Source: a virus. Taken from it: a stretch of 38,935 nt of DNA. A model generated the notes under the pieces. That model worked only from the letters and a program-made list of their open reading frames with translations. It did no database searches and was not told the origin of the DNA. The DNA lies in the IMG/VR virus record IMGVR_UViG_3300020194_000622, positions 1-38,935 of that record, one strand, 5' to 3'. A program made the translations under genes and the position numbers. Below are positions 4,769 through 34,343 of this stretch, piece by piece (position 1 is the first letter of the stretch; each line of letters begins with the position of its first letter).

Positions 4769-5185
4769 TTATCCTCGCCTCATCTTTGCAACTTCTTCGG
4801 CACTCTTCTTGTTACGAATCGGCACTGCATTGCTCTTGTGCATAGTAGCAATACCCATAATTTCCGTGCCTGTGTAAACGTTTTCTTTACGCTTGCCCAT
4901 GCTTGGGTGATAGCCAATGCTGTTGTCACTGGAGGGAATGGTAGGCCCGCCCGGATTCGAACCGGGATCGCTCTCTAATCTGGAGACATCTAACCGCGTA
5001 TAAGGCGGGTGTTTTACCGTTAAACTACGGGCCCTCTGTTCGCGCTGATCTGGGTGTACACCCATGCGCTTTAGAAACTTAGCATGATCCAGCTCTGCCT
5101 GGATTTGTGATTTAGTTTTGTTCTTGGACTTGCGTTTACGAGTGTTAGTTGTCGTAAACTGTGGTCCCATAAGATGCATTGTCAT
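4769..5185 (-). CDS. Phage conserved hypothetical protein with an embedded tRNA
   Basis: 138 residues. The basic N-terminus (MTMHLMGPQFTTTNTRKRKS... AKFLKRMGV) and the C-terminus (KENVYTGTEIMGIATMHKSN followed by AVPIR and AKMRRG) match a family I remember as frequent in marine T4-like phages, function unknown. Residues 51-83 are read from a complete tRNA gene on the same strand; the 96-base tRNA equals 32 codons, so it leaves the frame intact. The start ATG sits six bases after a TATTAT -10 box with a TTGACA -35, so the mRNA should be leaderless. RNase P cutting of the transcript for the tRNA would destroy the message. Confidence 0.75.
   Translation of the reverse strand: MTMHLMGPQFTTTNTRKRKSKNKTKSQIQAELDHAKFLKRMGVHPDQREQRARSLTVKHPPYTRLDVSRLESDPGSNPGGPTIPSSDNSIGYHPSMGKRKENVYTGTEIMGIATMHKSNAVPIRNKKSAEEVAKMRRG
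4939..5034 (-). tRNA. tRNA with CCA end and a long variable region; anticodon UAU by inspection
   Basis: The minus strand gives acceptor GGGCCCG paired with CGGGCCT, a D-arm GTTT/AAAC, an anticodon loop CTTATAC, a T-arm CCCGG TTCGAAT CCGGG, then A73 and an encoded CCA. The loop gives anticodon UAU at 5000-5002, which would read AUA (Ile). Yet the variable region is about 26 nt, with a TCTC/GAGA hairpin, as in class II tRNAs (Leu, Ser, Tyr), and the first anticodon-stem pair is mismatched. Identity is therefore uncertain. It lies in sense inside the 4769-5185 gene. Confidence 0.85.
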
Positions 5186-5191
5186 AATCTA

Positions 5192-5219
5192 ATAATAACA
5201 TACTCTAGAGTTTTGTCAA
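5192..5219 (-). promoter_or_regulatory. Sigma70-like promoter, leaderless start at 5185
   Basis: TTGACA (5214-5219), a 16-base spacer and TATTAT (5192-5197) on the minus strand. The ATG at 5185 begins six bases downstream of the -10 box, where transcription should begin. Confidence 0.7.
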
Positions 5220-6285: not shown

Positions 6286-6313
6286 AGTCTATACTATACA
6301 GAGGATCTGTCAA
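6286..6313 (-). promoter_or_regulatory. Sigma70-like promoter
   Basis: TTGACA (6308-6313), 16-base spacer, TAGACT (6286-6291), minus strand, overlapping the stop codon of pyrB and driving the 5766-6254 gene and those after it. Confidence 0.6.
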
Positions 6314-7188
6314 CCTAATATCGTGCTTAGTAGATATTTTCTTACAGCAAGCCCATTACTCATTTGTTCGAAATACTTAGCACGGGGGTCACTGTCAAAC
6401 CAATCGGGCAGTTCGTCTACTCGGGGCAAGGGGTGCATTACAATACTGTTTGGTGGCAAATTTTCTGCATCCAGTTTTGTAAAGGTGTAATTTCCTTGTG
6501 CACCCCTTTCCCGTTGTACTCTAGTCATGTATAGAACATCTGTTATCATAGCAAGATTTTCAGTAAGTTCTATACTTTCTAGATAACTCTTTTTATAGAG
6601 TTCTGAAGGTAGTCTTAATTGAGTTGGCCCTATTAAATTAATTTTAACATCAAAATTGTCCAGTGCTTTTACTAGACTGTGTATGGTACGACCGTGTTTT
6701 AGGTCTCCCATTAGTGTAATTGTTAGACCATCAAGTTTACCGAATTTTTTATAAATGGTATACAAGTCCAACAATGTTTGTGTAGGATGCTCTCCCACAC
6801 CGTCTCCTGCGTTAATTACAGGAACTGTGCTAACTTGACTAGCACGTTTGGCGGCACCTTCTTCCGGATGCCTTAGGATGATACAATGAACATAACACGC
6901 TAATGTTCTAATTGTATCTTCTAGAGTTTCTCCTTTGGCAACACTCGAATACTGGACATTGTTGATGTTAAGAACATCATGTCCCAGGTATGTTGCCGCA
7001 GCATAAAAACTCGAACTCGTTCTTGTTGAAGGTTCGTAAAACAGGTTAGCAACCAGTTTCTTTTTGTTTGGAATATATCGCTTAAGGTTTTGATCATCAA
7101 AAGTACGTATAGTGTTTAGAGTGTCTAAAAGACCACCTTTGTCGTAGTTGCTTATAGTGACAAAATGGTCACCTTTGGATAGTACCAT
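6310..7188 (-). CDS. pyrB: Aspartate carbamoyltransferase catalytic chain
   Basis: Joins carbamoyl phosphate and aspartate, the first committed step of pyrimidine synthesis. 292 residues against about 310 in bacteria. Diagnostic motifs are intact: carbamoyl-phosphate loop STRTS at 54-58, SVAKGET near 82 with the active-site Lys, HPTQT at 134-138, MTRVQRER near 221 and HPLPR at 252-256. No regulatory PyrI is nearby, so it would act as an unregulated trimer. Its start overlaps the end of the 7169-7522 gene by 20 bases. Together with PurS, GuaC and the reductase genes it points to de novo nucleotide supply during infection. Confidence 0.95.
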   Translation of the reverse strand: MVLSKGDHFVTISNYDKGGLLDTLNTIRTFDDQNLKRYIPNKKKLVANLFYEPSTRTSSSFYAAATYLGHDVLNINNVQYSSVAKGETLEDTIRTLACYVHCIILRHPEEGAAKRASQVSTVPVINAGDGVGEHPTQTLLDLYTIYKKFGKLDGLTITLMGDLKHGRTIHSLVKALDNFDVKINLIGPTQLRLPSELYKKSYLESIELTENLAMITDVLYMTRVQRERGAQGNYTFTKLDAENLPPNSIVMHPLPRVDELPDWFDSDPRAKYFEQMSNGLAVRKYLLSTILG

Positions 7189-33871: not shown

Positions 33872-33900
33872 TGACTGTGTCTACTTTCTTACTCCGCAAT

Positions 33901-33908
33901 TATTTATT
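33901..33908 (-). promoter_or_regulatory. Late-type box AATAAATA
   Basis: AATAAATA just behind the tmRNA terminator and about 29 bases before the lipoprotein ATG. Confidence 0.55.
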
Positions 33909-33915
33909 TTTAGCG

Positions 33916-33941
33916 AAAAAAAATGCAACCATTTCTGTTGC
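33916..33941 (-). terminator. Intrinsic terminator of the tmRNA gene
   Basis: Stem GCAAC / GTTGC with a seven-base loop and a run of eight T's on the minus strand, right after the tmRNA coding piece. An alternative longer stem uses GCAACC / GGTTGC. Confidence 0.85.
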
Positions 33942-33966
33942 TAGGTAGGTTGCCCACCCCATGAGA

Positions 33967-34011
33967 TTATGCTGCTAGAGCAAAATCCTCAGATGCTACA
34001 TTATCGTTAGC
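33967..34011 (-). other. tmRNA tag-peptide reading frame
   Basis: 15 codons, GCT to TAA, giving ANDNVASEDFALAA. The ANDN start is the alphaproteobacterial style and the ALAA end is the protease-recognised terminus. It is preceded by an A-rich single-stranded stretch as in known tmRNAs. Confidence 0.9.
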
Positions 34012-34084
34012 ATTTATTGTTTTTTGCTGATTTACGGTCTCGCCTACCGGTAACTCCACTTCGCTATACAACGCCAATCGATAC

Positions 34085-34228
34085 CTAGTTCGCCCCCCTC
34101 AGAAACACACGAATAAGTAATGGCCCAAATCTATAACTTTTATAAGGATTTCCACTATTTAATTTAAATTCGCCCCATTGAAAAGGAGTTCCTTTAAACC
34201 AACTAATCCAATGCCAATCCCAATTCAT
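34085..34228 (-). CDS. 47-codon ORF inside the tmRNA intervening segment
   Basis: MNWDWHWISWFKGTPFQWGE and ending RFGPLLIRVFLRGAN, with GAGGATATA before the ATG. It begins 19 bases after the acceptor CCA and ends with a TAG about 12 bases inside the tmRNA coding piece, so it can only be translated from the unprocessed transcript. The Trp-rich, basic, amphipathic sequence and good ribosome binding site look coding, but at this length chance is not excluded. No family recognised. Confidence 0.55.
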   Translation of the reverse strand: MNWDWHWISWFKGTPFQWGEFKLNSGNPYKSYRFGPLLIRVFLRGAN

Positions 34229-34314
34229 TATATCCTCATGTGTTTATGGTGGAGGCGCCGGGATTCGCACCCGGGTCTTGTTCGCCTTTTGCTGGGCTTC
34301 AACGTTACAATACT

Positions 34315-34343
34315 ATTTAACTACAAATGCTAGGAAATGTCAA
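34315..34343 (-). promoter_or_regulatory. Sigma70-like promoter of the tmRNA
   Basis: TTGACA (34338-34343), 17-base spacer, TTAAAT (34315-34320), minus strand, starting two bases after the speD stop. Transcription should begin near 34308, at the acceptor piece. Confidence 0.7.

Follow-up and report, generated by a model that had tools for sequence, protein, structure and literature searches.

The window analysed here is the whole 38,935-nucleotide stretch of the IMG/VR virus record IMGVR_UViG_3300020194_000622. On its minus strand lies an open reading frame that wholly contains, in sense and read without a stop, a gene for tRNA-Ile(UAU) (Table 1). The phrog_27048 profile matched the encoded protein with an E value of 5.4e-15, residues 3-137 aligning to positions 3-127 of the 127-position profile, and searches of Pfam and of PDB sequences with this protein gave no match. 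ARAGORN called the tRNA as tRNA-Ile(TAT), with a length of 96 nt including the encoded CCA, and its Rfam RF00005 score was 59.4 bits, the gathering score being 29; the nesting in sense and in frame that a preliminary description had read from the letters alone is thereby confirmed. The tRNA runs from the second base of codon 51 to the first base of codon 83, with codons 51-83 shared with the protein, the end ones partly. That description had also taken the 96 bases to be exactly 32 codons: the length and the lack of a stop hold, but the tRNA begins within a codon and the 32 x 3 length is incidental, because embedded relatives measure 74, 76, 77, 78, 92, 93 or 96 nt. The minimum-energy fold of the RNA of the whole ORF also shows the stems of the cloverleaf. 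Elsewhere in the window, positions 6310-7188 (minus strand) encode an aspartate/ornithine carbamoyltransferase homologue with both Pfam domains, an unusual metabolic gene for a phage.

Table 1 Features of the tRNA-bearing locus, in window coordinates
Feature	Position	Strand	Basis or remark
Protein-coding gene, 138 aa, assigned to PHROG family phrog_27048	4769..5185	minus	ATG to TAA, read through the tRNA
tRNA-Ile (anticodon UAU), complete, encoded CCA, 26-nt variable arm	4939..5034	minus	ARAGORN and Rfam
Conserved N-terminal part, residues 1-42 (MTMHLMGP...KFLKRMG), basic, predicted helical	5060..5185	minus	Homologue alignment, predicted structure
Variable linker, residues 43-97, hosting the tRNA	4895..5059	minus	In homologues, 0-3 tRNAs or unrelated sequence
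Conserved C-terminal part, residues 98-138 (KRKENVYTGTEI..MHKSNAVPI..MRRG), modelled as a beta hairpin and a helix	4772..4894	minus	Homologue alignment, predicted structure
Putative promoter TTGACA-N16-TATTAT, its -10 preceded by TG, with 6 nt between its end and the ATG	5192..5219	minus	Motif layout
Downstream ORF, 72 aa	4549..4767	minus	ATG 1 nt past the stop of the tRNA-bearing ORF

The predicted structure of the window protein comprises a helical N-terminal part, a small C-terminal part and a low-confidence linker at the tRNA site. Model confidence was lowest around residues 61-90 (blocks of 48-52) and the overall pTM was low; the linker encoded by the tRNA is presumably disordered, judging from this model. 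The promoter lies so close to the gene that its transcript would begin at or beside the ATG, and the downstream ORF is probably co-transcribed with the tRNA-bearing gene. The same promoter layout was found in 28 of 67 distinct regions upstream of tRNA-bearing genes, compared with 1 of 58 upstream of tRNA-less genes and 0.14% of shuffled upstream regions, an association that may reflect descent because the promoter-bearing sequences are closely related to one another. A Shine-Dalgarno-like 4-mer is absent in 27 of the 28 relatives with the promoter. The layout is not universal, since 39 of the 67 tRNA-bearing upstream regions do without it. These motifs support a promoter of leaderless type, from which the transcript may be leaderless as earlier suggested, for the window gene and for many of its tRNA-bearing relatives, but not for all.

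Viral contigs were scanned with the window protein, an alignment, the C-terminal part alone and the N-terminal part alone as queries, revealing a tRNA-bearing gene family in mostly marine phages. Across homologues the N- and C-terminal parts are conserved, with invariant columns in both, and the linker between them is variable, containing 0, 1, 2 or 3 complete sense tRNA genes of seven isotypes in all (Ile, Arg, Pro, Ala, Met, Thr and Trp). Single tRNAs are Ile, Arg, Pro, Ala or Met, and Trp in genes of the type found in the cultured phage Melnitz; pairs are Arg+Pro, Arg+Met, Arg+Ala, Ala+Pro, Ala+Thr, Thr+Pro, Trp+Ile and Ile+Pro; triplets are Arg+Met+Pro and Arg+Ile+Pro, the latter on a contig that ends before the N-terminal part. 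Many members bear no tRNA, their linkers being unrelated sequences within a single, continuous protein. The relatives thus either have other tRNAs in this position or lack them, both of which the preliminary description had envisaged.

About 110 distinct genes of the family contain intact tRNAs with an encoded CCA. On a tree, at least 36 changes of tRNA content and 10 of presence or absence were counted, rough figures given that the tree is poorly resolved. Between the loci L238 and L243, whose arms are 98-99% identical, an Arg cassette has been gained or lost in frame. The C-terminal module itself occurs in at least three types (HKSNAVPV, GQAYNKGGLQVLS..GKRR and APAYNKGPYQVISK) behind similar N-terminal parts, as if swapped; variant modules were seen at L212, L229-L231, L255, L256, L261, L275, L280 and L464 and in the Melnitz group (L410-L456). 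At L003, a separate 77-nt tRNA-Arg (4909-4985) ends 15 nt before the ATG of a tRNA-bearing gene, and this adjoining stand-alone tRNA points to a wider tRNA hot spot there.

We then asked whether the reading frame is kept through the tRNAs. Among 152 distinct N-to-C regions, 92 contain tRNAs, and 91 of these 92 are open and in frame throughout, although shared ancestry of the family members means that such sequence counts overstate independent events. In the single exception, L186, an indel lies in the lysine-rich N-terminal part upstream of the tRNAs, and the frame from the tRNAs to the C-terminal part is intact. Because separate searches with the N- and C-terminal parts do not select a joined frame, frame-broken genes would have surfaced; two separate genes with loss of frame between them, the arrangement that would have spoken against nesting, were looked for among the homologues and not found. 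The second C-terminal type is likewise in frame behind Arg, Arg+Pro and Ala+Pro, and a scan with the Melnitz protein yielded 20 distinct further genes with tRNA-Trp in frame. In two genes of the Melnitz type (L453 and L455) the tRNA-Trp is read in a different phase, which shows the feature kept to be N-to-C continuity and not a given peptide.

Spacers measured from fixed anchors fell into 22 junction types with 39 lengths, and each type had a single residue modulo three. At least 17 changes in spacer length were counted, all multiples of three, for which the chance expectation is (1/3)^17, or about 8e-9. Where an embedded tRNA is not a multiple of three in length, the frame is kept via these spacers. 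As a control, only 9 of 355 distinct viral tRNAs (2.5%) were nested in any sense ORF extending at least 90 nt upstream and at least 60 nt downstream of the tRNA, and a random phase of the stand-alone tRNAs in the studied loci was open about 28% of the time. A DNA-pattern search for tRNA-Arg(UCU) returned 108 distinct viral genes, of which 95 lack any open frame and 2 have a length of 78 nt, whereas each of the 28 embedded copies has that length and is free of stops in its reading phase. An extra D-loop base sets the 78-nt form apart from the usual one of 77 nt and removes an in-frame TAG. The relative Mosig has a 78-nt tRNA-Arg as a stand-alone gene, so that this length is partly explained by common descent; as pure proof of selection on frame it is weakened, and we treat it as support only. 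In the two Escherichia and Salmonella phage matches to tRNA-Arg that were opened in search of nesting, the tRNA lay between genes.

Differences among tRNA-bearing relatives fell on the third codon position in 67% of cases in the N-terminal part, 74% in the C-terminal part, 58% in the spacers and 28% in the tRNAs. At the level of sequence, this comparison shows the N- and C-terminal parts to behave as one reading frame under selection, running through the tRNA, and the window protein as a member of phrog_27048 in which both parts appear conserved under coding constraint. Within the tRNAs it is the RNA structure rather than the peptide that appears conserved, because third-position bias is absent there.

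Covariation was examined in the tRNA-Pro relatives, the Ile copies being too few. Across 26 embedded tRNA-Pro, 98.5% of cells are paired and 15 of 21 pairs have changed on both sides; 105 cells changed on both sides in total, a level that none of 500 shuffles reached. By such comparison the embedded tRNAs are seen to be maintained as tRNAs, and selection for frame and for RNA structure is indicated on the same bases. Decay also occurs: L055 has a decayed tRNA-Pro with a ruined anticodon arm and 3 extra bases, and its ORF is still open. In L194, L187 and L196, a 111-nt spacer before the tRNA-Pro resembles a second, decayed tRNA, in frame, of which the T arm and acceptor ends are recognisable.

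The variable arm of the tRNA-Ile(UAU) is long and class II-like, measures 26 nt in the window and contains a conserved TCTCCAGATTAGAGA hairpin. Nearly the same tRNA, 94 or 96 nt long and with the same variable arm, stands alone in the tRNA arrays of other phages (L037-L043 and L046-L050), but there among other tRNA genes and outside this protein gene. The proposal that the 26-nt variable region had been lengthened to make a multiple of three consequently fails, since the stand-alone 96- and 94-nt copies have it too and it is the spacers that hold the frame.

Taken together, the comparative evidence makes it probable that this gene is bifunctional, the same DNA being a tRNA gene that is complete and works and also an in-frame stretch inside a protein gene. 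The full-length protein would be translated straight through the tRNA sequence, which would supply a disordered linker. Alternatively, the same transcript would fold, and RNase P and 3'-end enzymes would cut out the tRNA. That RNase P would thereby cut the message in two, as first proposed from the sequence, can soundly be inferred. Because known enzymology would have one RNA either translated or cut by RNase P, the protein and tRNA fates would be mutually exclusive for each molecule; we infer a competition between ribosomes and RNase P, with the ratio of products set by ribosome traffic against folding. Cistrons downstream of the cut would stay translatable, and the 5' piece, having no stop codon, would need ribosome rescue. 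The linker would serve as a docking site between the conserved coding arms, where tRNA cassettes could arrive, drop out or replace one another, with only in-frame recombinants surviving.

The phage has its own tmRNA. A permuted, two-piece tmRNA of alphaproteobacterial type, with the tag ANDNVASEDFALAA, lies at window positions 33876-34342 (minus strand), and the same kind has been reported in Melnitz. It may be linked to the rescue of cut messages, and that it clears them is our guess; tmRNAs co-occurred with 7 of 12 tRNA-bearing and 4 of 12 tRNA-less long contigs, a non-significant difference among few contigs that are all fragments. A more elaborate reading would make the locus a switchable mRNA/tRNA precursor, in which ribosomes on a leaderless message decide between protein and tRNA, tmRNA clears the cut messages, and the coding arms act as homology arms that exchange tRNA cassettes to match hosts. 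We regard this as quite possible, without leaning towards it.

Several other explanations were weighed against a bifunctional gene. The tRNA fold could act in processing or regulating the mRNA, as an RNase P site limiting expression of the protein or of the downstream operon, and not as a decoding tRNA. The upstream message would inevitably come under the control of any cut made at the tRNA, and such an element fits a gene that has a promoter of its own and is followed 1 nt later by another cistron; it would have no need, however, of seven isotypes, intact anticodons, isotype swaps, runs of two or three tRNAs or an encoded CCA. We judge it unlikely on its own, although decoding and mRNA-processing roles may coexist.

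A split gene, in which two small proteins flank an ordinary tRNA, the C-terminal part starts from an internal ATG and the open frame is incidental, is improbable. A methionine does precede the C-terminal part in most members of the MHKSN type (PSM-KKE), a residue common in one subfamily, and RNase P and 3' processing would leave a short leader for an internal start. This methionine is absent from the GQAYNKG and APAYNKG C-terminal types and from the Melnitz group, all of them just as well in frame, and inspection of the window by eye showed no Shine-Dalgarno sequence ahead of it. Nor would two separate proteins account for spacers that vary only by multiples of three on either side of the tRNAs, for tRNAs stop-free in the used phase in 100% of cases, or for tRNA-less relatives that are single continuous proteins. 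An internal start of the C-terminal part was set aside as being without general support from the frame and from the distribution of the methionine in relatives, though it may occur in the subfamily where the methionine is common.

It could also be that the protein alone matters and that the tRNA-like stretch is a fossil, or a recent insertion tolerated as a linker. The decayed copies, in L055 and probably in the 111-nt spacer of L194, speak for this, each with the protein still open. As a general account we find this very improbable, given the intact tRNAs with encoded CCA across the family, the strong covariation of the embedded tRNA-Pro and the absence of third-position bias within the tRNAs.

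T4-like phages are known for introns and bypassing, and excision of the tRNA with rejoining of the mRNA halves, or a ribosome hop of the T4 gene 60 type, would give a protein without tRNA-encoded residues and could draw both products from one molecule. Omitting the 74-, 76- and 77-nt tRNAs (Trp, Ala and Pro) would shift the frame by 1, 2 and 1, putting the N- and C-terminal parts out of frame, so that translation must run through the tRNA; moreover, neither mechanism needs a stop-free tRNA, and the sequences are in frame when read through. A spliced or bypassed insert is thus ruled out by frame arithmetic, in that leaving out the tRNA does not restore the frame, and we give this explanation hardly any credence. 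Chance or an assembly artefact is negligible: a single tRNA frame may be open about 28% of the time, but the arrangement recurs independently in metagenome contigs, of which there are dozens, and is present in four cultured isolates, against the low nesting background and the spacer statistics given above.

If the gene is bifunctional, every base of a tRNA, among the most constrained of RNAs, can at the same time be coding sequence for a protein, and this holds across seven isotypes and many swaps. The competition of translation with RNase P on one molecule becomes directly testable in a cultured phage. Nested genes would be a way of storing tRNAs in compact phage genomes. They would also be a blind spot of annotation, in which pipelines keep only one of tRNA and CDS; the Melnitz records considered below seem to be an example.

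RNAs that are both mRNA and structured RNA are exemplified by SgrS/SgrT and RNAIII/hld, in which the structured RNA is regulatory, whereas in the present gene the structured RNA is a tRNA that serves along its full length as codons of a protein. In E. coli thrU-tufB, tRNA genes lie within a polycistronic mRNA and RNase P must cut a message-bearing transcript; those tRNAs stand between cistrons, and the present ones inside a single cistron. Organelle genomes have tRNA and protein genes that share bases, to our knowledge as end overlaps or on opposite strands, in contrast to the complete nesting in sense and in frame of interchangeable tRNAs described here. More generally, the bifunctional or overlapping genes that we know of involve a regulatory RNA, an overlap at gene ends or a tRNA placed between cistrons, and a search of the open-access literature found no description of in-frame nested tRNA genes.

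The nearest counterpart is the cultured OM43 phage Melnitz, in all four isolates of which (MZ577095-98) a tRNA-Trp(CCA) is nested in frame within gene 124. Four tRNAs were described in this phage (genes 59, 125, 147 and 153), with 125 as the tRNA-Trp, and the passages found on the tRNA-Trp in that paper make no mention of nesting in gene 124 (Buchholz et al. 2022, PMC9004378). In MZ577097 and MZ577098 the locus tags jump from 124 to 126 and the GenBank records have no tRNA-Trp feature, which was probably dropped for lying inside a CDS. Tryptic peptides predicted within or across the tRNA segment of Melnitz gp124 are CYGSTSDSKPLGR and GSIPCSPAIR. Melnitz 124/125 and the window gene share the protein family and the nested tRNA, and Melnitz differs in the isotype of its tRNA and in its C-terminal type.
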